Virus record (IMG/VR): IMGVR_UViG_3300047274_000061
Coordinates: 1 to 31,869 of that record
Source of the DNA: a virus
DNA length: 31,869 bases
Strand: one strand, 5' to 3'
How positions within the stretch are numbered: position 1 is the stretch's first letter; each line of letters starts with the position of its first letter. Below the pieces are notes generated by a model that saw only the letters and a list, made by a program, of their open reading frames with translations, had not been told where the DNA came from and ran no database searches. Shown here in pieces: positions 2,157 through 17,944 of this stretch. A program made the position numbers and the translations under genes.

Positions 2157-4565
2157 ATGCCATATTTTTATTGGAAAAATGAAGCAGATATTTACAGGGC
2201 AACAGGATATTCTGATGCAAGCCCAAGGAACACTATAACGATTCCCCTAGGTAGGCAATCGTATTTGCTTTCTACTGGTGGCACTAATAATCCAATATGG
2301 ATTCAGCAAGCAAAAATGTATCTTGCTGGTAGAGGTGGAACAAGAACTGCTTCGATAGTAATTGGAAATTCAACAACCTCGTCATTTTCTTTGGCTAATG
2401 CTGGAACGTCTGGATCAGCAACAGATACAGGATGGAAAGACACGGATTATAAATATTCTGGAACATCTGCAGCATCTATTTCTGTTGGATACAACACAAA
2501 TGGAAGTACCTTTTTTGGAAGATATGGAACAACAGCTGACACCACTACACTGTGGGGAAGATGTTTTTATAGCCAGGTTCCAACCGCCCCTACGTCAGTA
2601 TCAGCCTCATCGCCTTCAGCAAATACACTAAGAGTGTCCTGGTCTGTACCAAGCGATGATGGTGGCCTGTCAGTATCTGGATACTACGTTCAAATATCAA
2701 CATCTTCATCATTTAGCACAATAGCTAGCTTTGAAGAAAAGCCTTCGTCAGCATCATCTCACGACTTCTCTGGCCTGTCAGCAGGTACAACTTATTATGC
2801 AAGAGTGTTTGCCTATAATGACACATATTATGTTTTCCAAAATTACCCAATGTCTGTAGCTTCTCAGACTGCGTCTGCAGTCATATCGGCACCACCAGAG
2901 CCTGTATGGACTACAGACTCTACTTTGACAACAGCACAGATAAACTCTGCATACTCTACAACAGTTACTGCTACAAATACAGACAGCTATTCAAAAGTTA
3001 GCGGAGATTCTTGGCTATCAGTTTCGTCAAGTGGAACAGTATCTGGAACTGCACCATCTAGTGTTGGCACAGCATCAATAACAGTTAGAGCAACAGGTTC
3101 AGGTGGATCTGTTGATAGGGCGTTTTCAGTGCCAATAGATGGCCCTGCACCTAGCTGGAACACATCGTCACCATTGACATCAGTGGCTATTAGCACTTAC
3201 TATTCTTTGCAACTTTCTGCGACTAACGCAACGTCTTACCAAAAACTTTCTGGGGGATCAAACGACTCTTGGATATCAGTATCGTCTAGCGGACTAATAA
3301 CTGGAACGTCGCCATCTTCAGCTTCATCTGTTTCATTTACCGTTAGAGCAACTGGTAACGGCAAAAATACAGATAAAACATTTTCCCTTGATGTAACTCA
3401 GCCATCACCATCGTGGGTTACAGGAACTAGCCTTCCTGCTGCTCAACAATCTGTTGCATATTCAACGAATGTATCTGCATCATACACATCATCATATTCA
3501 AAGGTTAGCGGAGATTCTTGGATATCAGTTTCATCGAGTGGTACTGTTTCTGGAACACCAACATCTTCTGGAACGGCATCAGTGACGATTAGGGCCACAG
3601 GTCCAACAGGACTAACTTCTGATAGATCATTTACTATATCTGTTGCATCAGCACCAGTTCCAGTTTGGGTAACAACGTCTCCTCTTCCAAATGTGGTAGT
3701 AGGTTCTGCATACAATACTTCAGTTTCTGCTACAAATACTCAGACGTACTCCAAGCTTTCTGGCGGTACTAATGATGCATGGGTTAGTGTGCTCTCAACT
3801 GGTCAAGTATATGGTGCTCCACCAACAATAGGAACTACCATAGTCAAGATTAGAGCAACATCGTCACTCGGACAGACATCGGATAAAGATTTTTCTATTA
3901 GCGTGACAGCTCCACTGCCAGCATGGACAACAAACCAAACTCTTATTGGTGGAAAGGCTAATGCACCATATTCTGCTACTGTCTCTGCATCTAATACAGA
4001 CTCCTACGCTATTTCTGGAACAAAGCCATCATGGATATCTCTGAATACCTCTACTGGCTTGCTGTCTGGAACACCAACTGAAGAAGGGTCGTATTCAGTT
4101 ACAGTCGTTCCAACTGGTCCAGGTGGTGTAGGTCCATCTAGAACATTCTCTATTTCAATATCATCAGCATCTCCAGTATGGGTAGACTCTCAGCTTCAAA
4201 ATGCTTCTGGAGTTTTGAATGTTCAATACTCTGATGGATTTTCGGCTTCTAACGTTGTCTCGTCAAGTGGGTATCTAATTACAGGTCTTCCTACTGGAAT
4301 AACTTATAACTCTACAACTGGTGCCATATCTGGATATCCAACACAAACAGGTCAGTTCAATGTTCAGGTCACAGCATTTGGATTAGATGGGACAAACATA
4401 ACATCTTCTTCAATATTGAATATATACTATCCTGGAGAAAGAAAGACTATTTCTGGATCATTCAGTAGTATTGCTACCATGCAGAGATTTAATGGAACAA
4501 GCTGGGTCCCAGTGCAGTTTGTAAAAAGAAAAACAGCTTCTGGCTGGGAGAATGCCTCTAACTAG
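2157..4565 (+). CDS. Large FN3 and Ig-like (He_PIG type) repeat protein, tail surface adhesin
   Basis: The 802-aa protein has an N-terminal beta-rich domain (1-140), one fibronectin type III domain (about 141-240; PTAPTSVSASSPSANTLRVSW start, YYARVFAYND end), then six putative Ig repeats of about 85 residues (about 246-755). Each repeat follows the plan PxWxTxxxL....Y...V.A.N...Y.....SW[IL]SVSSSGxxSGTP....V.IRATG....D..F.I.V. The last 40 residues hold a small tail with RFNGTSWVPVQFVKRKTASGW. Such repeats usually extend a binding domain away from the particle and bind cell-surface polymers. The start has only a weak AGGGG site. Its 3' end overlaps the minus-strand transglycosylase gene by 8 bp, tail to tail, with no terminator visible between them. 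Confidence 0.8.
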   Translation: MPYFYWKNEADIYRATGYSDASPRNTITIPLGRQSYLLSTGGTNNPIWIQQAKMYLAGRGGTRTASIVIGNSTTSSFSLANAGTSGSATDTGWKDTDYKYSGTSAASISVGYNTNGSTFFGRYGTTADTTTLWGRCFYSQVPTAPTSVSASSPSANTLRVSWSVPSDDGGLSVSGYYVQISTSSSFSTIASFEEKPSSASSHDFSGLSAGTTYYARVFAYNDTYYVFQNYPMSVASQTASAVISAPPEPVWTTDSTLTTAQINSAYSTTVTATNTDSYSKVSGDSWLSVSSSGTVSGTAPSSVGTASITVRATGSGGSVDRAFSVPIDGPAPSWNTSSPLTSVAISTYYSLQLSATNATSYQKLSGGSNDSWISVSSSGLITGTSPSSASSVSFTVRATGNGKNTDKTFSLDVTQPSPSWVTGTSLPAAQQSVAYSTNVSASYTSSYSKVSGDSWISVSSSGTVSGTPTSSGTASVTIRATGPTGLTSDRSFTISVASAPVPVWVTTSPLPNVVVGSAYNTSVSATNTQTYSKLSGGTNDAWVSVLSTGQVYGAPPTIGTTIVKIRATSSLGQTSDKDFSISVTAPLPAWTTNQTLIGGKANAPYSATVSASNTDSYAISGTKPSWISLNTSTGLLSGTPTEEGSYSVTVVPTGPGGVGPSRTFSISISSASPVWVDSQLQNASGVLNVQYSDGFSASNVVSSSGYLITGLPTGITYNSTTGAISGYPTQTGQFNVQVTAFGLDGTNITSSSILNIYYPGERKTISGSFSSIATMQRFNGTSWVPVQFVKRKTASGWENASN
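2994..3556 (+). repeat. Near-identical direct repeat pair inside the Ig-repeat gene
   Basis: The 56-bp segments at 2994-3049 and 3501-3556 differ at only 7 positions, nearly all third codon bases. Both encode the KVSGDSW[LI]SVSSSGTVSGT core of Ig repeats 1 and 3. The intervening repeat 2 is more diverged. This points to recent duplication or gene conversion between non-adjacent repeats. Confidence 0.8.
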
Positions 4566-5070
4566 GAAAGTCAGAAATTATTCTTAATGCACTATCCTCT
4601 GTAGACCAGGCAGACCAGTTGTTGCCACCATTCGACATTTGATATGCAATTTTTGCATTAATCAATGGGTCAAATAAATCCTTTTCAGAGTCGAGGTTAT
4701 ATTTGTTTACTCTGTTTACCCCTAAAGATCCAGACATATTTATCTGAAAAAGTCCATAACAGTCGCTAGACTTATTATATGCCATTGGTCTTCTAGTTGA
4801 TTCTTTTACAGCAATAGCCCATGCATACTTCAGGGCATAGCCAGAAAATCCAGCTTGCTTTAGTATGGAAATTAGTTCAGCGTCAGACAGCATTGTCTTA
4901 GCTGTAAAGGGTGCCTTTACAATCTTGTACTGACCACGATCAAAACTTACCTCTTGAGTAGCAGGCACATAAAGTGTTTGATTTGGAAGATCAGCAGGCT
5001 GCCCCACAATGCTAGAAGCAGTTAGTGAGACAACCATGCTGATTGATCCTAGTAGTATGTTTGTGTTCAT
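4558..5070 (-). CDS. Exported SLT-type lytic transglycosylase / lysozyme-like endolysin
   Basis: This 170-aa protein carries a lysozyme-like SLT fold. The catalytic glutamate is E90 in AVKESTRRPMAYN, followed by the diagnostic CYGLFQINM (104-112) and the closing DPLINAKIAYQMS...NWSAWS. It would cleave the glycan strands of peptidoglycan. Residues 4-22 are hydrophobic and lack a lipobox (ILLGSISMVVSLTASSIVG), so the protein is probably exported, either cleaved or as a signal-anchor enzyme. Its ATG overlaps the stop of the upstream peptidase gene (TAATG on the minus strand), so the two wall hydrolases are made together. It is transcribed against the adhesin genes on both sides. No holin gene is seen beside it. 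Function is confident; the use at lysis rather than entry is inferred from the minus-strand placement and export signal. Confidence 0.85.
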   Translation of the reverse strand: MNTNILLGSISMVVSLTASSIVGQPADLPNQTLYVPATQEVSFDRGQYKIVKAPFTAKTMLSDAELISILKQAGFSGYALKYAWAIAVKESTRRPMAYNKSSDCYGLFQINMSGSLGVNRVNKYNLDSEKDLFDPLINAKIAYQMSNGGNNWSAWSTEDSALRIISDFPS

Positions 5071-5657
5071 TAGTTCTCAATTACTCTAATAAAGCTAATT
5101 TCACTTTTAGAAAACCAGCTATCCGTTAGTTTGATTGTTTCTGTTCTTGTTCCTGGCTTTCTGGCATGTACTACTTTACCATCACCAATATAAATACCAA
5201 CATGGTAGTATTTTTCAGAATTCAAATGCTTAAAAGCTACAATATCTCCAGGCTTTGGCTCAGACACATGGTTGCCTGCATATTTTGCCTGCTTGGATGC
5301 AGAGTGGTCAATCTCAATTCCCAGTCCAGCATAAAACCATCTGGTCAGCCCAGAGCAGTCCCATCCAGCAGTAGAAGAGCCACTAAAAACATATGGAGTT
5401 CTTCCAACATGCTTCATAAGTTCGCTTATGCGACTTTTGATTGCAGCAGTATTTTTTTCTTTAGCAATCTGCTTTGCTAGTTTAGCAAGATCTATTTCTC
5501 GCTGCTTGTTTGTTGCTATAACTTGTTCTAGTATTCTCTGTTGTTTGATGTTTGTATTAACGCTTTTGGCGTTATGTCGGTCATCTCCGACGGCAGTTAA
5601 TGGTGAACAGCTAACAACTAACAGTCCAATAATTCCTAGTATTGCAATCTTTTTCAA
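5070..5657 (-). CDS. NlpC/P60 peptidoglycan peptidase lipoprotein, TTG start
   Basis: This 195-aa protein has an NlpC/P60 cysteine peptidase domain at about 85-195. Catalytic C101 sits in GWDCSGLTRWFY, H152 in YYHVGIYIGDG and a third polar residue, H164, in VVHARKP. It should cut peptide stems of peptidoglycan. The start is a TTG at 5657-5655, chosen because AGGAGG (5669-5664) lies 6 nt upstream and because it begins exactly at a signal sequence: KK, then IAILGIIGLLVVSC with lipobox VVSC, C17 being the lipidated residue. Residues 30-80 are a charged helical, probably coiled, spacer. An upstream in-frame extension to 5825 would add 56 implausible residues across the promoter. A lipid-anchored outer-membrane-face hydrolase is unusual for a phage. 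It is coupled to the downstream transglycosylase gene. Confidence 0.85.
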   Translation of the reverse strand: MKKIAILGIIGLLVVSCSPLTAVGDDRHNAKSVNTNIKQQRILEQVIATNKQREIDLAKLAKQIAKEKNTAAIKSRISELMKHVGRTPYVFSGSSTAGWDCSGLTRWFYAGLGIEIDHSASKQAKYAGNHVSEPKPGDIVAFKHLNSEKYYHVGIYIGDGKVVHARKPGTRTETIKLTDSWFSKSEISFIRVIEN

Positions 5658-6899: not shown

Positions 6900-8798
6900 A
6901 TGGCAACAGTCGTAAAAGACTTTAAGATTAAGTCTGGCTTGGTTGTTGAGGGCACAAATGGTACCATCAACGGCTATGACATTCTTACAAAGAAAACAGC
7001 AGACCAGAACTACATTATTGGTCTGATTGGTGGCTCTGCTACCGCACTTGCTACCCCAGATACAGTAGTTCTTCGTGACAACAATGGTAGCTTTGCAGCT
7101 AACGTTGTTACAGCAGACCTAGTTGGTGATGTTACTGGTGACCTTACAGGTAACGTAACAGGTAACGTAACAGGTAACGTAACTGGCGATGTAACAGGTA
7201 ACTTGACTGGTAACGTTACTGGTACAGTTTCTGACATCTCAAACCACAGCACAGATGATCTTGCAGAGGGTGAAGACAACCTTTACTTTACAGAGGCTCG
7301 TGCTCAGGACGCATTTGGTGCAGGAACAGGTATTGGCCTAAACGCTGGTACAATTTCTGTTGACCGCACTACAGTAGATGCTTGGTACGACGCTGCAGGC
7401 TCTGCAGCCACTGCTCTTGAAGATGCAAATGACTACACTGACGCTCGTGAAACAGCTATCACTAATGCCTACCAGTCTTACGCAAACCAGGCAGAGCTAG
7501 ATGCTGTTGCAACTGCAGGTTCTTACACAGACGCTCGTGAGACTGCTATTACAACCGCTTACGAGGCATACGCTGATGCTGCTCAAGAAGCTGCAGAGGA
7601 CTACGCAGACGGCAAGATTGACGATGCTACTACCACAACCAACAAGACATGGTCTTCTTACAAGATTGATGCTGAGATTGGTTCTGCAGTTGCTGGTCTA
7701 GTGGGTTCTGCTCCAGAAGTTCTAGATACAATTCAGGAGCTAGCAACAGCACTTGAAAATAACCCAGACATTATTGCTGATCTTGAGACTGTTGCAGCAG
7801 GAAAGCAGGGTACTCTTACAGCAGGTAATGGTATTGTCATAGATGAGGATAACCTAATCTATGTTCCAACCTCTATTGGTAGTGGTATTTCTGTAACCCC
7901 AAGCACTGTTGAAATTGATCGTGACGTAGTAGATGAGTGGTACGATGCAGCAGGTGCAGCTTCAGCAGCTCAGTCTGCAGCCCAGAGCTTCGCAACTTCT
8001 GCAGACACAACCTTATATGGAACTGTAACTGGTGATATTGCTACTGCAAAGCAGCAGGCCATTGATGCAGCAGCCACAGATGCTACTACTAAGGCTAACG
8101 CTGCTCAGTCAGCTGCAGAGGCTACTGCCTCAGCAGACGCTACTACTAAGGCGAATGCTGCACAGTCAGCTGCTGAAACATTTGCAACTAATGCTATCAA
8201 TGCACTAGATACAGATGACATCGAAGAAGGGTTAAATAACCTGTACTACACAACTGGTCGTGCAAAGACTGATGCAGCTGCTCTGCTTGTTGGTGCAACC
8301 CTTACCAATATCCAGATTACTGGTGATGGAAATGGCCTAACAATTACCGCTGAAAACGGTGTTGCAGATTCTGATACTGATGACTTGCAGGAAGGTTCTA
8401 GTAACCTTTACTTCACAGATGAGCGAGCTGTAGATGCACTCCAGGGTACTGACTCAATGTTTACCACAGTAAGCATTGACGAGGTTGCTCTTCAGGTTGC
8501 TGCAACTCTGTCTGCTCCAACAGCAGGTATTCAGAATGCCTATGCCTGGGCTACTGCAGACTACCGTTCTGCAGAGTTCTTGGTAAAGGTTGCATATGGA
8601 ACACACACAGAAATCTCTAAGGTTCTTCTAACTCTAGATACTTCTGGCAACATTGCAATTACTGAATACGGAATTGTTGGAACTAATGGTTCTGCATCGT
8701 CAATCTCTGCTTCTGTGGTAGATGACGAAGTAGTTCTAGAAGTAACTACAAACAACAACAACTCTACAGTTACCGTAGTTGGTACACTGCTAGTATAA
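6900..8798 (+). CDS. Long tail fibre protein with TGNV tract and NLYFT repeats
   Basis: The 632-aa fibre protein starts with an adaptor VKDFKIKSGLVVEG, which is shared with the next protein (DKDFKVKNGIQVTG). Residues 76-110 are a G-[DN]-[VL]-T tetrapeptide tract. Three fibre motifs follow, of the form DD[LI]xEGxxNLY[FY]TxxRA, typical of T4-like and cyanophage fibres. Ala-rich helical segments (DARETAITxAYxxYA; TTKANAAQSAAE) predict coiled coil. The C-terminal domain from about 520 has NAYAWATADYRSAEFLVKVA and ITEYGIVGTNG, as in many phage fibre ends. AAGGAGA precedes ATG 6900. It probably forms a homotrimeric shaft and tip for host recognition. Confidence 0.8.
   Translation: MATVVKDFKIKSGLVVEGTNGTINGYDILTKKTADQNYIIGLIGGSATALATPDTVVLRDNNGSFAANVVTADLVGDVTGDLTGNVTGNVTGNVTGDVTGNLTGNVTGTVSDISNHSTDDLAEGEDNLYFTEARAQDAFGAGTGIGLNAGTISVDRTTVDAWYDAAGSAATALEDANDYTDARETAITNAYQSYANQAELDAVATAGSYTDARETAITTAYEAYADAAQEAAEDYADGKIDDATTTTNKTWSSYKIDAEIGSAVAGLVGSAPEVLDTIQELATALENNPDIIADLETVAAGKQGTLTAGNGIVIDEDNLIYVPTSIGSGISVTPSTVEIDRDVVDEWYDAAGAASAAQSAAQSFATSADTTLYGTVTGDIATAKQQAIDAAATDATTKANAAQSAAEATASADATTKANAAQSAAETFATNAINALDTDDIEEGLNNLYYTTGRAKTDAAALLVGATLTNIQITGDGNGLTITAENGVADSDTDDLQEGSSNLYFTDERAVDALQGTDSMFTTVSIDEVALQVAATLSAPTAGIQNAYAWATADYRSAEFLVKVAYGTHTEISKVLLTLDTSGNIAITEYGIVGTNGSASSISASVVDDEVVLEVTTNNNNSTVTVVGTLLV
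7125..7229 (+). repeat. Tandem 12-bp repeat encoding a T-G-[ND]-[VL] tract
   Basis: About eight consecutive 12-bp units close to GGTAACGTAACA encode residues 76-110 of the 632-aa fibre as GDVTGDLTGNVTGNVTG and onwards. Such tracts lie in the shafts of phage fibres. The DNA repeat could change copy number by slippage. Confidence 0.75.
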
Positions 8799-9341: not shown

Positions 9342-12209
9342 ATGGCAACTAGAATGCAGCAACGCCGAGGAACTGTGGCGGAATGGACAGCAGCAAACCC
9401 TGTTCTAGCAGCAGGTGAGATTGGTTTTGAGACTGACAGTGGTCAGTTTAAGATTGGTGATGGAACTAACCACTGGGCTGACCTGTCATATTTTAGAAAC
9501 CTTGAGGACCTTGGCTTTAACGCAGAGGACTATGTTGAAGTTACCCTACTTGGAGAGCCTCTGGGTGTTGCTACTCTAGACGAAAACGGAAAGCTGTCGG
9601 CTGACCAGATTCCAAATATTGATGAAATTTCTCAGGACGCTATTGACGCAGCTTTGACAGCTGGAACAGGTATTAGCAAGACTTACAACGATGCATCAAA
9701 CACCATTACTATTGCTGTGGATTCAACTATTGCTACAAAGACCTATGTGGACGATGCCATCTCTGGAGTCATCGACGGTGCCCCAACCGCACTGGATACT
9801 CTAAACGAACTAGCAGCTGCTCTCGGAGACGATGAAAACTATGCAGTATCTACAGTAAACTTTATCAACACCAAGGTAGACGAGCTTACAGAAGACATTG
9901 CAGATGCTATCACTACTGCCTCTGCTACAACCGATTCGGCAATCTCTACTCTGACTACTAATACAATTGTGCCAATTCAGTCAGATATCTCTACTCTTCA
10001 GGATCAGGTAGTTGACCTAGCTAGCGACAAGCAAGACAAGGTCTCTGGTGTGTCTGATGCTGAGATCGGATACCTTGCCAATGTAACATCTGATATTCAG
10101 GGACAGCTAGATGCTAAGGCTAATGGTTCTCACACACACATTCTTGGTGAAATAACAGACGTAACAGTGACTGCAGCAGAGGTAAACTCTCTAGTTGGAA
10201 TCTCTGGCGATGTTCAGATTCTTCTGGATGGCAAGGCTGGGACAATTCACACACACAGTCTATCTGACATAACTGATGTTACTGCTACAGTTGCAGAAGT
10301 AAATGTTTTGGATGGCATCACAGCAACTACAGCTGAGCTAAACATTCTTGCTGGGGCAACAGTAACCGCTCTAGAACTAGATACCCTTTCTGGCGTAACA
10401 TCAAGCATCCAGAATCAGCTAAACAATAAGGCTGGTACAACACACACGCACACCTTGGTAGACGTAACGGACGTTACTGCTACTGTAGCTGAGGTAAACT
10501 ACCTATCTGGTGTTACCTCTGGAGTTCAGGGGCAGCTAGACGGAAAAGCAGATACCTCTCACTCACACGCTGTATCAGACCTAACTGGTGTTACTGTAGA
10601 TGCTGCAGCTATTAACTCTTTGTCTGGAATCCAGAGCAATGTCCAGGATCAGCTAGACGGCAAGTCTGATGACTCACACACACACCTGCTAGAGGATGTA
10701 ACTGATGTTACAGCTACTACTGCAGAGGTCAACTACCTATCTGGCGTTACATCTAGCGTTCAGGACCAAATAGACTCTAAGCAGGATGAAATCACTGGTG
10801 CTGCTACTAGCATTGTATCTTCAGACCTTACAGCCGACAGAGCACTTATTTCCGACGGAAGCGGAAAAGTTTGGGCATCTCTGATAACAAAGAGTGAGCT
10901 AGAAAAGCTTTCTGGAGTAACTTCTGGAATTCAGTCTCAGCTAGATGGAAAGTCTGCTATTGGCCACACGCACACCACAGCAGACATTGATGGACTCTCT
11001 GCTACAGCTACTGAGCTAAACCACTCTGTAGGGGTTACATCTTCTATTCAGACACAGCTAGATGGTAAGGCAGCATCAAGCCACACCCACCCACAGTCAG
11101 ACATTACTGATCTAGAGGATGACCTAGCATCTAAGGCAAACCTTTCTGGTGCAACCTTTACTGGAGCAGTGGTTCTACACGCTGACCCAACTCAGGCTCT
11201 ACATGCAACTACTAAGCAGTACGTTGACAACGTTGCTTCTGGAATCCTTGCAAAGCCATCTGTAGTTGCAGCAACAACTGCAAACCTGTCTGCAACCTAT
11301 AGCAACGGAAATAGTGGTGTAGGTGCTACACTTACTGCAACCTCTAATGGAGCATTCCCCCAGATTGATGGTGTCTCGGTTACAACTGTTAGCGGACAGC
11401 GTGGAGTTCTAGTGAAGAACCAAACCGATGCCTCTCAGAATGGTCGATACAACCTAACTACTCAGGGTGACGCAAACACTCCATGGGTGCTTACTCGCTG
11501 TGGCCTCTGTGACGAAGCTTCCGAAATCCCTGGTGCTTACGTATTCGTAACTGACGGTACCGTAAATGGTCAAACTGGATGGGTACAGCACGTAGATAGC
11601 CCAGACACTTTCACCGTCGGAACTGACGATATTGCTGTATTCCAGTTTGCTGGAGCAGGAGCGGTTACTGCAGGGACAAATATCTCTGTAACTGGTAGTG
11701 AGGTTTCTGTTGTTGATGATCCAGAATTCTCTGATATTGTTGTGACTGGATCTGTTGACTTTACTGGTGCAACAGTTACTGGTATCGCACTAGGAAATGG
11801 CGGTGTTGATGACGTAACTGTTTCAGGCCCAACATCTCAAGACGTTCTATACTTTAATGGGTTGGGCTGGGTAAATAAGTATATCAACGCAATTCCAACT
11901 AAGATTAGCGAAGCTACTGTAACATCAAACAATTATGAACTTGTAGCAGCAGATGCTGGAAAGATTGTTGAAATCTCAAATGCTAATGCAACCACAGTAA
12001 CAATTCCAAGCGATGAAAGCTTTGCAGTCGGAACTATGATTGTAGTATCGCAGACAGGTGCTGGACAGGTAACAGTTGTAGTAGAAAACTCTGGCACACA
12101 AACACTAAACTCTACCCCTGGCAGCAAACTGAGAGCTCAATGGTCAGTTGCAACATTGTTGAAGCGTTCAGCTAACACATGGCTAGTATATGGAGATTTG
12201 GTGGCTTAA
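9342..12209 (+). CDS. Large tail fibre with Mtd-type N-terminus and HxH repeats
   Basis: The 955-aa protein starts with a major-tropism-determinant-type N-terminal domain (1-50): MQQRRGTVAEWTAANPVLAA, GEIGFETDSGQFKIGDG, W..L. Residues about 235-590 are eight repeats of about 39 aa (AEVNxLSGVTSxVQxQLDGKxxxSHTHxxxDVTDVTAT); seven carry H[TS]H. HxH motifs coordinate iron in T4 gp37, so a metal-braced trimeric shaft is plausible. Residues about 625-770 hold LHATTKQYVDNV, RGVLVKNQTDASQNGRYNL and a W.L.R pattern, a common phage fibre domain. The last 100 residues include EISNANATTVTIPSDESFAVGTMI, as in fibre tips. AGGAGA precedes ATG 9342. The role is host receptor binding. Confidence 0.85.
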   Translation: MATRMQQRRGTVAEWTAANPVLAAGEIGFETDSGQFKIGDGTNHWADLSYFRNLEDLGFNAEDYVEVTLLGEPLGVATLDENGKLSADQIPNIDEISQDAIDAALTAGTGISKTYNDASNTITIAVDSTIATKTYVDDAISGVIDGAPTALDTLNELAAALGDDENYAVSTVNFINTKVDELTEDIADAITTASATTDSAISTLTTNTIVPIQSDISTLQDQVVDLASDKQDKVSGVSDAEIGYLANVTSDIQGQLDAKANGSHTHILGEITDVTVTAAEVNSLVGISGDVQILLDGKAGTIHTHSLSDITDVTATVAEVNVLDGITATTAELNILAGATVTALELDTLSGVTSSIQNQLNNKAGTTHTHTLVDVTDVTATVAEVNYLSGVTSGVQGQLDGKADTSHSHAVSDLTGVTVDAAAINSLSGIQSNVQDQLDGKSDDSHTHLLEDVTDVTATTAEVNYLSGVTSSVQDQIDSKQDEITGAATSIVSSDLTADRALISDGSGKVWASLITKSELEKLSGVTSGIQSQLDGKSAIGHTHTTADIDGLSATATELNHSVGVTSSIQTQLDGKAASSHTHPQSDITDLEDDLASKANLSGATFTGAVVLHADPTQALHATTKQYVDNVASGILAKPSVVAATTANLSATYSNGNSGVGATLTATSNGAFPQIDGVSVTTVSGQRGVLVKNQTDASQNGRYNLTTQGDANTPWVLTRCGLCDEASEIPGAYVFVTDGTVNGQTGWVQHVDSPDTFTVGTDDIAVFQFAGAGAVTAGTNISVTGSEVSVVDDPEFSDIVVTGSVDFTGATVTGIALGNGGVDDVTVSGPTSQDVLYFNGLGWVNKYINAIPTKISEATVTSNNYELVAADAGKIVEISNANATTVTIPSDESFAVGTMIVVSQTGAGQVTVVVENSGTQTLNSTPGSKLRAQWSVATLLKRSANTWLVYGDLVA
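10050..11110 (+). repeat. Eight 39-aa fibre repeats with HxH motifs
   Basis: DNA and protein repeats of about 117 bp, each with TxAEVNxLSGVTSxVQ and most with a SHTH doublet, lie in the middle of the 955-aa fibre. One unit is longer because of an insertion (TAELNILAGATVTALELDTL). Another has lost its HTH and carries ITGAATSIVSSDL in its place. Confidence 0.75.
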
Positions 12210-12211
12210 TT

Positions 12212-13816
12212 ATGAGAATATTTGGATTTGGTGGCAAGGTTCTTGGTGGAAAGTTTGAGGATGACTTTAATCGCTCAAATACCACTGGCGGACTAGGTGT
12301 TTCTAGCAGCGGTACCGAATGGGAAGCTGTAAATGGCCTGATCAACGTAGAGAATAATTCTGCAGTATCAACGCCACCAGCCTCTCCAACAGTTGGAAGC
12401 TCATATCCAATATCTGTAATTGAAGCACAAGATGAAAATGCCGTAATTACGCTATCTGATACAAACGAAGGATCTTCTGTAGCTCTTTGGGTTCAGTCTA
12501 GTCAGGACTGGTGGATGGTTTCTGTTGACTCCACATTTAATACCATTCCTGGTGCAGTGAACTACACATCTGGAACGCCACTAGTATATACTTCTAGCGG
12601 TCCCACATATACTAAGGGTGACACAACTTATACGAATGCTCTAGGAACCTATACCTCGAACACTCCGTATACACAAGGAGCCACAACCTATACTGCTGGT
12701 TCAAACAACTATACATCTGGATCCACCTTATACTCTGTTGGTGGAACATCTTATACTTCTGCAGCTGCTAACTATACAGCAGCTACAGTATATAGCTCAT
12801 ACACGCCATACACAGCTAGCACAGCGTTTACATCAGCAGGTGGAGGCACATACTCATTCGCAAACTATGCCTTTGATGACACATATTATACTCAGGGGCC
12901 AACTACATACTCTTCATCAACAGCATATACCATGAGCCAGCCATATACCTCAAGCAGAAGCTATACTATGAGTCAGCCATATACGTCTGCAACGAACTTT
13001 TCTTCAAACACAAACTACACTATGAAGTTTGCTCCATATGCTTGGACAAAGGGGCCTACCACATATACAAGCGGTAAAAGCTATACTGGTGGAACTGCAA
13101 ACTTTACAGCATCACCAGCTAACTATACTGGTGGAACTGCAAACTTTACTTCAAAAACTAATTTTTCTAGCGGAATAGCATATTCGTCGCAGAACGTCTA
13201 CATATTGTGGAATTCTGGAACTTATGTAGCTCCTACAAACTATACTCAGGGCCCGACCAACTATTATGCTGGTAGCTCTTACGTAGTTGCAGGCCCAACA
13301 ACTTATACTCAGAATGGACCATACTACACATCCAACACTCCTTACACAACAGTCGTTCCGTATACCTCTAATACGCCATATACGTCGAACACCCCATACT
13401 CTAGTGTAAATAACTATACTAGCAGCCTAGTTTACACAAGTGCTGATAACTATTCCTCGAATATTGCTTACACTTCAAACCACACCTACACAAAGGGACA
13501 GGACCCAGATACGTATGCCTACGCAGCTTACCTAAAGGTTAAAAAGTCTGTAGGAAATACCGTAAGCACCGTAAGCTCGTCAATTGTTTCGACGGTATCG
13601 ACAATTAAGTCGATCATTGTTCAGACGCTAGGCAACCAGATTACAGCAAAAGCCTTCTCTGATGACAATTTTGTTACTCAGATTGGTAATGATCTGGTAT
13701 ATACAGCAACTGGTGCTGTCGTAAATGCTAAATACGGAATCTCTTTATCTACTGCAGAGTACGATCAAAGTGCTATAATAGGTACTGAGATTGTAATCGA
13801 TAAAAACGATGCATAG
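12212..13816 (+). CDS. Jelly-roll-type protein interrupted by about 48 Tyr-Thr repeats
   Basis: I take ATG 12212, three bases after the previous stop; an in-frame ATG at 12179 would overlap that gene by 31 bp with no better site. The protein is 534 aa. Residues 15-110 look like the first half of a LamG/concanavalin-type jelly roll (FEDDFNRS, LGVSSSGTEWEAVNG, WWMVSVDS). Residues about 116-430 are a run of about 48 units, x-[YF]-[TS]-x3-5, such as PYTSNT, TYTQGPT and NYTGGTA. Residues about 435-534 read like the missing half of the jelly roll (YLKVKKSVGN, SIIVQTLGNQITAKAFSDD, GISLSTAEYDQSA). It lies among fibre genes and is probably a surface adhesin. The fold assignment is inference. Confidence 0.7.
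   Translation: MRIFGFGGKVLGGKFEDDFNRSNTTGGLGVSSSGTEWEAVNGLINVENNSAVSTPPASPTVGSSYPISVIEAQDENAVITLSDTNEGSSVALWVQSSQDWWMVSVDSTFNTIPGAVNYTSGTPLVYTSSGPTYTKGDTTYTNALGTYTSNTPYTQGATTYTAGSNNYTSGSTLYSVGGTSYTSAAANYTAATVYSSYTPYTASTAFTSAGGGTYSFANYAFDDTYYTQGPTTYSSSTAYTMSQPYTSSRSYTMSQPYTSATNFSSNTNYTMKFAPYAWTKGPTTYTSGKSYTGGTANFTASPANYTGGTANFTSKTNFSSGIAYSSQNVYILWNSGTYVAPTNYTQGPTNYYAGSSYVVAGPTTYTQNGPYYTSNTPYTTVVPYTSNTPYTSNTPYSSVNNYTSSLVYTSADNYSSNIAYTSNHTYTKGQDPDTYAYAAYLKVKKSVGNTVSTVSSSIVSTVSTIKSIIVQTLGNQITAKAFSDDNFVTQIGNDLVYTATGAVVNAKYGISLSTAEYDQSAIIGTEIVIDKNDA
12558..13500 (+). repeat. YT-repeat tract
   Basis: The tract encodes about 48 short units of 6-9 residues with an aromatic Tyr or Phe then Thr or Ser at regular spacing. 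Most units begin Pro, Thr, Asn, Ser or Ala before the Tyr. Some neighbouring units are nearly identical at DNA level (for example the PYTSNT units around 13380), others have drifted, so expansion by tandem duplication is likely. Confidence 0.8.
13771..13779 (+). promoter_or_regulatory. Possible extended -10 promoter inside the YT-repeat gene
   Basis: TGCTATAAT is a perfect extended -10 box lying within the last codons of the preceding gene, 51 bp before GTG 13831. It could drive the three-gene unit 13831-15595. Confidence 0.45.
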
Positions 13817-13830
13817 TAGATAGGATTTTT

Positions 13831-14520
13831 GTGAAACTAATTAGATTCTTTTCAAAAAAGATTTATGACAACTTGGGGCAGCCAACTACAGCTAAAAAAC
13901 ATCTGCCTCAATGGTATAAGGATTCTGAAGCAACTTTTATTACTGAAGATGGTTCAGAGCATGCTGGACTAAAGAAGTGCATTCCATTCCTTGACGCTAT
14001 GCTTTCTGGCTACATGTTGGTAACGCCAGTAGATATTTTTATCTCTCACAATGAAGACGGAACACCAAACATCAGATGGAATTCCCCAGAGTCATTTATT
14101 GATTTTATTTCAGAGAGAACTAAACTTCTTGGCGAACAAATGCCTCGTCCAGCTGGACATTTTCCAAACCACCTAGCATTTAGAGGAACTTGGGGTTTTA
14201 GACTTCCAAAAGGTTGGAGTGTGTTGGTCACTCAACCATTTAACAGACACGACCTTCCTTGGACGCTCACATCTGGACTCATGGATGCTGACCAATTTTC
14301 TACCAGTGGCAATCTGCCATTCTTCCTAAGAAAAGATTTCGTTGGAATGGTGCCTGCAGGAACACCAATTGCACAGGTATTGCCAGTAAAGAGGGCATCT
14401 TGGAAGGCAATCTATAATGACCAAGGACTAGTATACTTAGACGATTTGCAAACCGCAGCCGTGCGATCTTTTGGTAATAGCTACAAAAAGCTGTTTTGGC
14501 AAAGAAAGGACTATTCTTAA
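13831..14520 (+). CDS. Unknown phage protein, DUF6065-like pattern (copy 1)
   Basis: This 229-aa protein begins at a GTG. It is clearly paralogous to the protein at 14945-15595. Shared blocks are KKC[IV]PFLDAM..GY (here 48-61) with a following DI, a P.G[WY]S.L.T.P[FL]NR.DLP block, N.PFF.RKDFVG, PAGTPIAQ..P.KR..WK (175-182 for PAGTPIAQ) and a C-terminal YK[KR].FW.RK.YS. These recall the DUF6065-type proteins seen in many phages, but I could not compare them directly. No catalytic motif is known for them. The gene lies in the fibre block, so a part in virion assembly or fibre modification is possible but unproven. Confidence 0.6.
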   Translation: MKLIRFFSKKIYDNLGQPTTAKKHLPQWYKDSEATFITEDGSEHAGLKKCIPFLDAMLSGYMLVTPVDIFISHNEDGTPNIRWNSPESFIDFISERTKLLGEQMPRPAGHFPNHLAFRGTWGFRLPKGWSVLVTQPFNRHDLPWTLTSGLMDADQFSTSGNLPFFLRKDFVGMVPAGTPIAQVLPVKRASWKAIYNDQGLVYLDDLQTAAVRSFGNSYKKLFWQRKDYS

Positions 14521-14523
14521 TAA

Positions 14524-14958
14524 ATGGCAAAGAAAAAAGAGAAAAACATTTACGGTGAATATCTTTATGACTACAAGCCAACGGTTGGTTCGCTTCTGAG
14601 GGAATACCTTCAAGAGCGTCTCTCAAACGTTAGAAGGGTCAAAGAATCTCCAATTCAGCCAGGAGCAATATTCAGACCACAAGAGGATGTTTTGAAGAAT
14701 CTGCCACTTCAGTATATTGCTGTAGTAAAAGACTCTGTTGTGGAAGAAATGATTCGTGTTAACGTAAAAACAGCTGAAGTTTTGTTGTCTGAAAACGTAC
14801 AACTAGTTGCTTTTAACCCACAAGAAGTAGTGGTTCAGCTAGGCATGATATGTAAGGATGGAGAGTTCTTATTCCAGGCAGATATTCCAAAAGAAAACTC
14901 AGATTTTATAAATTCAGACACTACTTTTGAAGAGGAAATAGCTAATGAAAAAGATTAA
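14524..14958 (+). CDS. Unknown protein between the two paralogues
   Basis: This 144-aa protein starts three bases after the previous stop and overlaps the next gene by 14 bp, so the three genes form one unit. The N-terminus is strongly basic (AKKKEKN), the middle has alternating hydrophobic strands (YIAVVKDSVVEEMIRVNVKTAEVLLSE), and the last 15 residues are acidic (TTFEEEIANEKD). No family recognised. Its tight coupling to both DUF6065-like genes suggests a shared function. Confidence 0.55.
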   Translation: MAKKKEKNIYGEYLYDYKPTVGSLLREYLQERLSNVRRVKESPIQPGAIFRPQEDVLKNLPLQYIAVVKDSVVEEMIRVNVKTAEVLLSENVQLVAFNPQEVVVQLGMICKDGEFLFQADIPKENSDFINSDTTFEEEIANEKD

Positions 14959-15595
14959 GTTTAGGTCTAAATATCCTGGCATCTCTTATGACACACCAAA
15001 GCCAGCCTCAAGAATGGTTCCAGAATGGTTTAGAAAATTTGATGGGGTAGTTAATGGTCAAGAAACTATCAAGAAGTGTGTCCCATTCCTGGATGCTATG
15101 ACCACTGGTTACGCAATTACTTTGGCAGCAGACATCTACGTGGATAAGAATGGTGTTCAGCAAATTTCAAAAGATGGTGTAGTAACTACGCACCTTGTTG
15201 ATCAAATTGGTGAGATGAAGGTACCATATGAGTACATTAGAACACCATTTAAGTGGATGAACTTTTTTATTGCTAAAACCCCAAGAGGATACAGCACTCT
15301 GTTTACACACCCACTGAATAGGCCAGACTTGCCATTCTATACCTTGAGCGGTGTTGTAGATACCGACAGCTTCCCCTTAGAGGTAAACTTTCCATTTTTT
15401 ATGAGAAAGGATTTTGTTGGAATCATTCCTGCAGGTACCCCTATCGCACAAGCGATTCCTTTCAAAAGAGAAGACTGGAAGATGGATCTTGACACAGAGA
15501 GTCCATATCAGGAGCCAACATTTACTCATACTATGCACAATCCGCCATTTGGATATTATAAGAGACACTTCTGGTCACGTAAAAAGTACTCGTAG
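14945..15595 (+). CDS. Unknown phage protein, DUF6065-like pattern (copy 2)
   Basis: This 216-aa paralogue of the protein at 13831-14520 keeps all the shared blocks: KKCVPFLDAMTTGY (43-56), TPRGYSTLFTHPLNRPDLP, NFPFFMRKDFVGIIPAGTPIAQ (PAGTPIAQ at 162-169), FKREDWK and a final YYKRHFWSRKKYS. The region between (about 65-95) and the segment before the C-terminus differ in length and sequence, so the duplication is old or under divergent selection. A GAGG site lies inside the upstream gene. Function unknown; as for copy 1, the fibre-gene neighbourhood hints at a virion role. Confidence 0.6.
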   Translation: MKKIKFRSKYPGISYDTPKPASRMVPEWFRKFDGVVNGQETIKKCVPFLDAMTTGYAITLAADIYVDKNGVQQISKDGVVTTHLVDQIGEMKVPYEYIRTPFKWMNFFIAKTPRGYSTLFTHPLNRPDLPFYTLSGVVDTDSFPLEVNFPFFMRKDFVGIIPAGTPIAQAIPFKREDWKMDLDTESPYQEPTFTHTMHNPPFGYYKRHFWSRKKYS

Positions 15596-15614: not shown

Positions 15615-16697
15615 ATGTCAGTAGAAAGAATCCAACTTAGACGAGGCTCAACATCAGCCTGGGAAGCAGCAAATCCAACCCTATACTTAGGAGAGTTTGG
15701 AGTAGAAAGAACGGTAGACGACGAGGTCCTGCTGAAGGTTGGGGATGGTGAAACCTCATGGAACTCGCTACCATATATTTCTGCCGATGTTGACTTGTCT
15801 GGCTACTACACATCTACTCAGACAGATCAAAAGATAGCCCTAGATATTTCTGCAGCCTCAGCCATTCTTATTGGTCAATTGGCCAGTAAATCAGATGTTA
15901 CTCATAATCACGCCTTAGCAACGCTTACTGACGTAGAAGTAGATGATGTCACATCAGGTCAATATTTAAAATTTGATGGATCAGACTGGGTTCCTGGATC
16001 AGTGACAACACCAACAAGTTTCGACTATGAAGATTTGACAAATGTTCCGACAACATTTACTCCATCATCCCACATTCATGCAATATCAGATATTACCAAC
16101 CTGCAAACATCTCTAGATGGAAAAGCATCTTCTGCTCATACCCATGCTATTTCTGATACTACTGGGTTACAATCAGCACTTGATGGAAAGGCAGCATCTT
16201 CGCATACTCACACCAAGTCACAAATAACAGATTTTTCTCACACACACGTTATGTCAGATATTACAGATCTTTCTGTCGAACCACCAACTGAGCTTGCAGA
16301 TACCCTTATAATTTCACCAAAAGAAAAAACTTTAGTGTCTGCTACAGCAGCAACTGGAACTATTAATATAGACGTTTCGAGCCAGTCCGACGTTTTTTAT
16401 ACCTCAAGTGCAACTGGAAACTTTGTATTAAATATTCGTGGGAACGGTTCTACAACGCTAGCGTCCATCCTTGACGTTGGTCAGTCACTAACAGTTGTTT
16501 TTAAAAATACAAATGGCTCCACTGGATACTACCTAACTGGCATTCAGATCGATGGATCAAGCGTAACCCCAAAGTGGCTTATTAGTGCTCCTTCGTACGG
16601 AACTCCAAGTGGGGTAGATTCATATAGCATTACCATTACAAAAACAGCTTCAGCCCCGACATATGTAGTTTTTGCATCTCAGGCAGGATATGTATAA
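15615..16697 (+). CDS. Tail fibre with Mtd-type N-terminus and HxH repeats (second copy)
   Basis: This 360-aa fibre shares its N-terminal domain with the 955-aa fibre: IQLRRGSTSAWEAANPTLYL, GEFGVERTVDDEVLLKVGDG, W.SLPY. Residues about 90-220 hold five HxH units (THNHALATLTDV, SHIHAISDIT, AHTHAISDTT, SHTHTKSQIT, SHTHVMSDIT) with LQ[TS][AS]LDGKA linkers. The last 120 residues are a beta domain (GNFVLNIRGNGST, GQSLTVVFKNTNGSTGYYLTGIQIDG) of the type that ends many phage fibres. The two fibres could share one attachment site and give alternative tips. Overlaps the next gene through TAATG. Confidence 0.75.
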   Translation: MSVERIQLRRGSTSAWEAANPTLYLGEFGVERTVDDEVLLKVGDGETSWNSLPYISADVDLSGYYTSTQTDQKIALDISAASAILIGQLASKSDVTHNHALATLTDVEVDDVTSGQYLKFDGSDWVPGSVTTPTSFDYEDLTNVPTTFTPSSHIHAISDITNLQTSLDGKASSAHTHAISDTTGLQSALDGKAASSHTHTKSQITDFSHTHVMSDITDLSVEPPTELADTLIISPKEKTLVSATAATGTINIDVSSQSDVFYTSSATGNFVLNIRGNGSTTLASILDVGQSLTVVFKNTNGSTGYYLTGIQIDGSSVTPKWLISAPSYGTPSGVDSYSITITKTASAPTYVVFASQAGYV

Positions 16698-17944
16698 TGC
16701 CTGTCCAGTCTTCTTCAACTTTAAAGAATACAGGCCAAAAGCAAGACGTAGACTATTGGGTCTGGAGCGGGATTTCTCCAGGAAACCTAGCTGGAAGAGT
16801 TGCCCTAGCTCATCCAAACGGCAAAGACACATATATTTCTGCTTTTGATACAGGTCTGTCCAAGATAGACGCAGGCGGATCTATCGCTTGGACTAGGTCG
16901 TCTCCATCAGGGCTTATATATGGTGCAGATGTGGACTCTGCTGGAAACGTTTATACAGTTGGTGGCAACACTACAGTCGCAAAGTTCAACTCTGATGGTG
17001 GGGTGGTTTGGTGCAGGACTATAAATACTGACAGTCCAAGCAATGTAAGTCCAGGAATCTCTGTTGGCACCAGTGGTGCTGTTTATGTTGCATCGCAAGA
17101 CAGCTCAAGCAATCCAGTTCTAATAAAACTAAACTCTGATGGCTCTATCTCTTGGTCAAGAAAGATCTCTGGGGTAGCTGGTCAGTTTCAATTTGTAAAT
17201 GTAGATGAGGATAACAATAGGGTATATGCTGCAGGCATCGTTGGCATAACAAATTCTCAATCAGTGGCTGGATATGCTACAGTGCTAGCAGCATTTGATC
17301 TATCTGGAAATTTGCAGTGGCAAAAACGACTATGGGAGGACAGCACAAACAGGTCCTTTCCTGCTGGTGTGCAGTCTTATGGAGGTTCTGTATTTGTATC
17401 ATTTTCTGTAGGGTATTACTCATGTCCAATTTTTAAATATAGTAAAGACGGAAACCTAGAGCCAATTAGTGGTGGCATGTATGGACTATGGGGCTCTGAT
17501 GACTTTTTTGCATCTGCCCCATTCAGGATAAGTAAGACAAACGGTGATATCGTTGTGGTGTATAGAAGCGGTACTGTGGCAAAGTATTCCATAAACGGAA
17601 GCCAAATCTGGTCCAGGAGATTTCTTTCTAGCTCTTCAAGCTTTTACTATGGAGCAGACGTAAGTGTTGACTCTTCTGGAAATGTCTATTCTTTGGTATA
17701 TGCTGGATCAACCTCTAGGTGTATCTTTGCAAAAGTCAAGTCAGATGGATCTGGAACTGGGACTTATGGGGACTATTCGTATACGTCTGGAACGTCTTCA
17801 CACTTTTTAAACAATAGCATGCAATCTTGGCAAGCATCTAGTAGCTACACAATAAGCTCTACCACACACACATCTACAGCAGTGACTTTTACTGGAGTTG
17901 CATCAAACCCTGTAGGCAAATTTGCACCATTAAGGACGAGATAA
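16697..17944 (+). CDS. Beta-propeller-like adhesin
   Basis: This 415-aa protein is built from about six or seven repeats with the plan D..GNVY.[VA]GG....[VL].K[FL].[SD]G...W.[RK], as in AKFNSDGGVVWCR, IKLNSDGSISWSRK, AFDLSGNLQWQKR and AKYSINGSQIWSRR. That is the pattern of PQQ/SBBP-type beta-propellers, spanning about residues 40-365. No catalytic residues stand out, so a binding role is more likely. It is coupled by TAATG overlaps to the fibre before it and the small protein after it. The first 30 residues (VQSSSTLKNTGQKQDVDYW) may attach it to the fibre. Host-surface or glycan binding is inferred. Confidence 0.65.
   Translation: MPVQSSSTLKNTGQKQDVDYWVWSGISPGNLAGRVALAHPNGKDTYISAFDTGLSKIDAGGSIAWTRSSPSGLIYGADVDSAGNVYTVGGNTTVAKFNSDGGVVWCRTINTDSPSNVSPGISVGTSGAVYVASQDSSSNPVLIKLNSDGSISWSRKISGVAGQFQFVNVDEDNNRVYAAGIVGITNSQSVAGYATVLAAFDLSGNLQWQKRLWEDSTNRSFPAGVQSYGGSVFVSFSVGYYSCPIFKYSKDGNLEPISGGMYGLWGSDDFFASAPFRISKTNGDIVVVYRSGTVAKYSINGSQIWSRRFLSSSSSFYYGADVSVDSSGNVYSLVYAGSTSRCIFAKVKSDGSGTGTYGDYSYTSGTSSHFLNNSMQSWQASSSYTISSTTHTSTAVTFTGVASNPVGKFAPLRTR

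Follow-up and report, generated by a model that had tools for sequence, protein, structure and literature searches.

The gene at positions 12,212-13,816 (+ strand) of the window, the whole stretch of 31,869 nucleotides of viral DNA analyzed here, encodes a 534-residue jelly-roll protein with a long insert that varies among its relatives, an assignment based on the open reading frame and its translation, on the 84% identical homologue L001 and on about 35 further contigs. Because the relatives keep the domain but carry different chains in the same loop, the protein is probably an interchangeable host-recognition tip. On balance we favor the view that it is a virion adhesin located at the tip of the adjacent fiber, with its constant sandwich docked on the fiber and its insert acting as an exchangeable recognition element.

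Repeat Pattern of the Insert

The reading frame is open throughout and its ATG start codon lies 3 nt after the stop codon of a fiber gene. Three parts can be distinguished in the product, all encoded on the + strand: the N-terminal half of a β-sandwich (12,239-12,565) that ends in a conserved WVQSSxDWWMV strand, an insert comprising residues 119-430 (12,566-13,501) that is built of 6- or 7-residue [YF][TS] units, and the C-terminal half of the sandwich (13,502-13,807) with the elements AYxxxLKVKKSV, GNQITAKAFSD and IGxDLVYTATG, which is conserved in all relatives. The insert, delineated by motif counts, periodicity and a low-confidence region in the AlphaFold2 model of the homologue L125, is about 314 residues long and is predicted to sit at the tip of a β-hairpin; the structural limits mapped from that model agree with those proposed in an earlier note on this DNA, residues 116-430.

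Residues 117-430 include 47 Tyr and 8 Phe. Strict [YF][TS] motifs number 43 in the insert, as compared with 20.4 ± 3.3 (maximum 31) in 2000 composition-preserving shuffles; the regular Tyr-Thr repeat described in the earlier note stands, while its count of 48 units is slightly high. Successive Tyr/Phe distances are 6 in 24 of 54 cases and 7 in a further 13 (37 together), and aromatic pairs give z = 6.1 at lag 6 and z = 3.0 at lag 7, bearing out the proposed period of 6-7. On the DNA, Tandem Repeats Finder reports just two short and weak arrays inside the insert, so that the pattern is kept at the level of the protein. No GxY repeat is present in the window insert, which therefore lacks the glycine at every third residue that marks collagen-like phage proteins.

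Fold of the Scaffold

An AlphaFold2 model of the window protein computed from only two sequences has a mean pLDDT of 28 and is unusable, and the claim that its two flanks constitute a single domain therefore rests on homology with L125, which has a short insert and for which a 30-sequence alignment was used. The model of this homologue has a pLDDT of at least 90 at 153 of 328 residues and a pTM of 0.64. Both flanks form one β-sandwich, with pLDDT values mostly >90 (the two halves of the window protein are mapped from it), as had been supposed when the flanks were taken for halves of one jelly-roll domain, and the sole long segment of low confidence, residues 120-226 with pLDDT <50, is the insert. 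Strands 104-119 and 227-243 flank the insert as a long hairpin that forms its base, and they map onto residues 100-118 and 431-447 of the window protein; the suggestion that the insert emerges from a loop thus finds its counterpart at the hairpin tip.

According to this model the fold class is that of a concanavalin-A/CBM-like two-sheet jelly-roll β-sandwich, the remote matches all being weak statistically. A Foldseek search with the L125 model returns six uncharacterized proteins of uncultured Caudovirales with E-values of 1e-10 to 1e-14 over most of the length (UniProt A0A6J5RDN1, A0A6J5KM36, A0A6J7WYT9, A0A6J5MLT4, A0A6J7WRS3 and A0A6J5REI5, 308-510 residues); these unnamed and undescribed proteins probably belong to the same family as the jelly-roll protein. 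Among solved structures none has E < 0.001. Below this threshold the nearest by E-value is the CBM2 of the evolved Dit of phage J-1 (5ly8, E 0.028, probability 0.90), and further matches include the central fiber gp20 of mycobacteriophage Douge (8zdp, probability 0.97, E 0.32), the mannose lectin VIP36 and tail proteins; the probable sub-threshold matches are all of concanavalin/CBM or tail-protein type. At the sequence level, no profile match to concanavalin A-like lectin/CBM families was obtained in Pfam, NCBIfam or PHROGs.

Relatives and Diversity of the Inserts

L001, the closest homologue, is encoded on a 59.7-kb IMG/VR contig. A search with the C-terminal flank yielded 24 further loci and broader alignments about 35 IMG/VR contigs in total, and this flank is present in 31 of 31 related virus records, usually in one copy. 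Every relative examined in full shares these two flanks and has its insert at one site, between the WVQSSxDWWMV strand and a strand of the form AYxxxLRVRQSV. The jelly-roll protein has no convincing match in Pfam, PHROGs, NCBIfam, PDB sequences or INPHARED phages, and tblastn of the whole protein and of its flanks against INPHARED likewise gave nothing convincing and no cultured relative. A jelly-roll with a long aromatic loop insert was not found described in the open-access literature, and the earlier statement that no described family has this arrangement is upheld by the database searches. The only INPHARED match of the C-terminal flank was rejected (E = 5, over tRNA genes), as was a Mannheimia match to the repeat, which lies on the strand opposite to the annotated gene and reflects chance low complexity. 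Most matches of a DNA scan for Y[TS]x4 were off-frame reads or collagen-like proteins of the GYTGS/GYSGI type, and L001 was the only one in which the jelly-roll architecture was seen; scans of genome contigs for relatives confirmed none. Very long collagen-like GYTGS/GYSGI proteins are common in IMG/VR contigs (L012, L016, L032, L061, L074 and others).

The inserts are of several kinds. Tyr-Thr units are found in the window, L001, L129, L157 and L164; Phe/Tyr-Ser sequences with Trp/Arg patches in L130, L131, L139 and L156; short inserts rich in Tyr, Phe and Asn in L125-L128, L132, L135 and L137; NYN-type inserts in L168; Phe-Thr in L170; Cys-Tyr in L140 and L204-L220; and Cys-rich inserts in L142-L148. 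Measured lengths extend from 81 to 348 residues, and the Cys-rich inserts are, by eye, ∼400 residues long. Over 30 sequences aromatics account for 13-27% of the inserts as compared with 5-10% of the flanks, and Ile, Leu, Val and Met for 2-13% as compared with 20-27%; charged residues make up 1-7% of the inserts (13% in one exception) and Cys is either absent or present at 8-17%. A strong 6/7 register characterizes the long Tyr-Thr subgroup and is missing from most others, and the Tyr-Thr repeat, which had been taken as the defining feature, is one form among several of a variable insert whose composition is constrained.

In their flanks L125 and L130 resemble the window to the same degree (107/189 and 108/188 identities). 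However, the L130 insert is collinear with that of the window, 8.0 SD above unit-order shuffles, whereas the value for the L125 insert is -0.3. Since equally window-like flanks thus bear unrelated or collinear inserts, the histories of scaffold and insert are uncoupled. The proposal of a tunable extension applies in a stronger sense than one of repeat number: indels among relatives are often one repeat unit, and whole inserts differing in both sequence and length also occur at the one site. L136 contains two tandem jelly-roll genes (2492-4048 and 4071-5321) whose inserts differ, being Tyr-Thr-rich in one and Tyr/Pro-rich in the other; this arrangement may represent an intermediate in the replacement of one insert by another. 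A distant member, L222 (3543-5291), has an apparent second extra segment elsewhere in its N-terminal half, besides a Cys/Tyr insert.

Selection and Diversification

In close pairs dN/dS is 0.08-0.39 for the insert and 0.00-0.36 for the flanks, with the insert higher in most pairs and with values for the window and L001 that are approximate because dS is near saturation. Several indels of 6-8 residues, often equal to one repeat unit, separate the inserts of close pairs. Judged from these comparisons, the inserts are under purifying selection within subgroups. Between the window and L001 an aromatic residue is kept at 60 of 60 aromatic positions and the small class at 88 of 105. Insert dN/dS is below 1 in every pair, and no positive selection of the receptor-arms-race type was seen. 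Diversification by an Mtd-like DGR was rejected, as neither of its components was found: there is no RVT_1 reverse transcriptase in the 31 related records, many of which are fragments, and the rest of the window has no repeat resembling a template for the insert.

Fiber and Gene Neighborhood

The window is a tail-fiber region that adjoins portal and head-protease genes. Beside the jelly-roll gene, as stated in the earlier note, is a large tail fiber gene (9342-12,209, +; 955 residues); it lies directly upstream, an order that recurs in relatives. Its product has an N-terminal Mtd_N domain and PTR repeats (PF18454 and PF12789, both scoring above the Pfam cut-off; tail fiber/minor tail protein in PHROGs). 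The fiber ends in a conserved domain of ∼90 residues (11,925-12,206, +) that we propose as the docking module for the adhesin. In 26 loci the protein encoded immediately before the jelly-roll terminates in the same domain, although its total length varies from 132 to 1435 residues, and in the 23 loci measured the jelly-roll start falls between -3 and +6 nt relative to the end of the fiber ORF. This neighbor had been described as a large receptor-binding fiber; its size holds, its receptor-binding role is a presumption, and the jelly-roll protein may be the receptor binder instead.

Conserved neighbors follow downstream, namely a PHROG 7084 protein, A (13,831-14,520, +), a 144-residue protein (14,524-14,958, +) and a second PHROG 7084 protein, B (14,945-15,595, +), a paralogue of A. 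Where the contig extends far enough, most loci show the order fiber, jelly-roll, A, small gene, B; in a few distant members some of these genes are absent or escaped detection. The two paralogues have diverged from each other and enclose the 144-residue gene. Distant homologues of PHROG 7084 occur in 49 INPHARED records, nearly all of them Hafunaviridae-type haloarchaeal tailed viruses.

The C-terminal domain of the fiber is also present in 236 phage records, mostly from Gordonia (minor tail proteins), where it is followed by varied small genes, and it may serve more generally as a docking module. In Brevundimonas phage Domovoi it is followed by a gene for a Gly-rich protein annotated as lectin-like. 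In Gordonia phages the gene that follows encodes a small β-rich minor tail protein that belongs to another family and has no insert of this kind, so that the slot after the fiber domain is not always occupied by a known adhesin.

Other genes of the window include one at 16,697-17,944 for a 415-residue protein with weak β-propeller matches, segments of which share only 26-31% identity with the corresponding L001 protein; the genes around it are about 77-90% identical to those of L001, and it is likely an exchanged gene. An 802-residue protein (2157-4565) contains an fn3 domain together with several Ig-like domains of the He_PIG type, and a 12/24-bp DNA tandem repeat lies at 7134-7224 within a gene for a 632-residue fiber-like protein.

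Proposed Function

We infer that the protein is located on the virion, that it docks to the fiber and that it binds a receptor, with the insert rather than the sandwich as the receptor binder. In the mechanism that we propose, the constant concanavalin/CBM-like sandwich (residues ∼10-118 and 431-532) would fold and dock, its probable docking site being the conserved domain that ends the upstream fiber, and the long insert, carried on the tip of a β-hairpin, would contact the host surface as an exchangeable recognition element. The chemistry of the insert, aromatic residues with Ser/Thr and small residues and with or without Cys, would suit glycan or protein contact without charge specificity, and its identity would shift between lineages through replacement and through gain or loss of 6-8-residue units. 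Support comes from the sub-threshold fold neighbors, which are binding modules (the J-1 evolved-Dit CBM2, VIP36 and the Douge central fiber), from the presence of unrelated inserts of constant composition at one site on equally related scaffolds, and from the conserved gene order with the fiber C-terminus, a position where Domovoi has its lectin-annotated protein. In addition, a PHROG 7084 homologue lies near a host-range-linked Gly-rich adhesin in hafunaviruses (PMC8651126). Against an adhesin stand the insert dN/dS, which is below 1 everywhere and gives no sign of the positive selection that arms races over receptors typically bring, and the protein of another family that Gordonia phages encode after the same fiber domain.

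A structural extension is rather unlikely. Inserts of several copies, in a trimer for example, would come together in a regular β-structure with stacked tyrosines that produces a longer fiber or a stalk, and the receptor would be bound elsewhere. The strong 6/7 register of the long Tyr-Thr subgroup, the retention of every aromatic position between the window and L001 and an insert dN/dS of 0.08, near the 0.06 of the flanks, are in keeping with this picture and make an ordered structure with a core plausible. However, most subgroups are without the register, and a shared structural role is hard to reconcile with inserts of 81-150 residues or with Cys-rich ones; the pLDDT of <50 for the insert, though obtained in a short-insert homologue, also speaks against it.

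Unlikely, too, is that the insert is a disordered aromatic low-complexity chain with Tyr spaced as in other sticker-and-spacer sequences, a non-specific ribbon that would adhere weakly and multivalently to surfaces, to slime or to other virions, even though its complexity is low with few charges and no confident fold in the homologue, and relatives share composition but not sequence. The purifying selection and the collinear unit order across the Tyr-Thr subgroup exceed what such a chain needs, and Cys-rich versions suggest cross-linked folded loops. This selection together with the retention of every aromatic argues against a loosely constrained sticky ribbon.

That the jelly-roll instead caps the adjacent fiber or acts as its chaperone, with an insert that is dispensable or modulates assembly, seems quite improbable. 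The constant gene order with the fiber C-terminal domain would fit, as would the precedent of T4 gp38, a chaperone released after assembly, in place of which T2-type phages have a receptor-binding gp38 (PMC12892980), but a long exchangeable insert is superfluous for a chaperone and the fold neighbors are binding modules. Neutral, functionless expansion of low complexity, arising through DNA slippage in a loop that tolerates it, to which the repetitive inserts and the often unit-sized indels of relatives might point, is very improbable and already largely refuted, in view of dN/dS values well below 1, conserved aromatics, DNA tandem repeats that are only weak and short, and an insert of the same chemistry in every relative examined.

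Comparison with Known Systems

In T-even phages the order gp37-gp38 places the adhesin gene directly after the large fiber gene. As with T-even gp38, the jelly-roll gene is directly downstream of a fiber gene (-3 to +6 nt, 23 loci) and its product has a variable segment on a constant scaffold, a segment that may contact the receptor. The gp38 proteins of S16, PP01 and T2 have a polyglycine-II (PGII) sandwich with hypervariable loops that are thought to contact the receptor, while the constant part docks (PMC12892980). Unlike gp38, with its β-helix, its PGII sandwich and several short loops between Gly-rich motifs, the jelly-roll protein is predicted to be a concanavalin/CBM-like β-sandwich with one long aromatic insert; it contains no Gly-rich motifs or PGII sandwich and has no sequence match to gp38. 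By this comparison it is gp38-like in organization and outside that family.

The evolved Dit proteins of siphophages have carbohydrate-binding modules as domains inserted in the distal tail protein (PMC7291167). The module of Lactobacillus phage J-1 (5ly8) is, like ours, a phage module, and is host-binding, with a fold match that falls short of E < 0.001; unlike evolved Dit modules, the jelly-roll protein is the product of a free-standing gene and has a low-complexity insert inside the module. The Douge central fiber gp20 (8zdp) and actinophage minor tail proteins provide a sandwich fold in a tail fiber protein, again at a sub-threshold match, and we know of no aromatic insert in them.

In hafunaviruses the PHROG 7084 homologue is close to a variable adhesin locus and to the ConA-like virion protein VP1, and mutations in the Gly-rich adhesin and its neighbor go with differences in host range (PMC8651126). 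The locus (HF2, HRTV-10) differs from ours in that the adhesin is gp38-like and Gly-rich and the PHROG 7084 homologue is on the opposite strand; neither of these two loci contains a jelly-roll with an insert, and, judged by eye, the small genes in the adhesin locus of HF2 bear no similarity to the gene for the 144-residue neighbor.

Functional binding loops can be made from Tyr and Ser only (review, PMC3498902). It is conceivable, if doubtful, that the family is a natural minimalist binding system in which, much as in synthetic antibodies with a Tyr/Ser binary code, loops are made from a near-closed alphabet (aromatics, Ser/Thr and small residues, in some cases also Cys), here on a constant sandwich, and are diversified without a diversity-generating retroelement (DGR) by unit gain or loss and by wholesale swaps. 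The work describes a protein family of uncultured viruses that had not been described; its variable part is recognizable in the sequence by where it lies and by its composition. Should the insert prove to be the receptor-binding element, reading one loop would allow host specificity to be compared across many uncultured phages, and the family would offer a natural parallel to binding loops made of Tyr and Ser only (PMC3498902).
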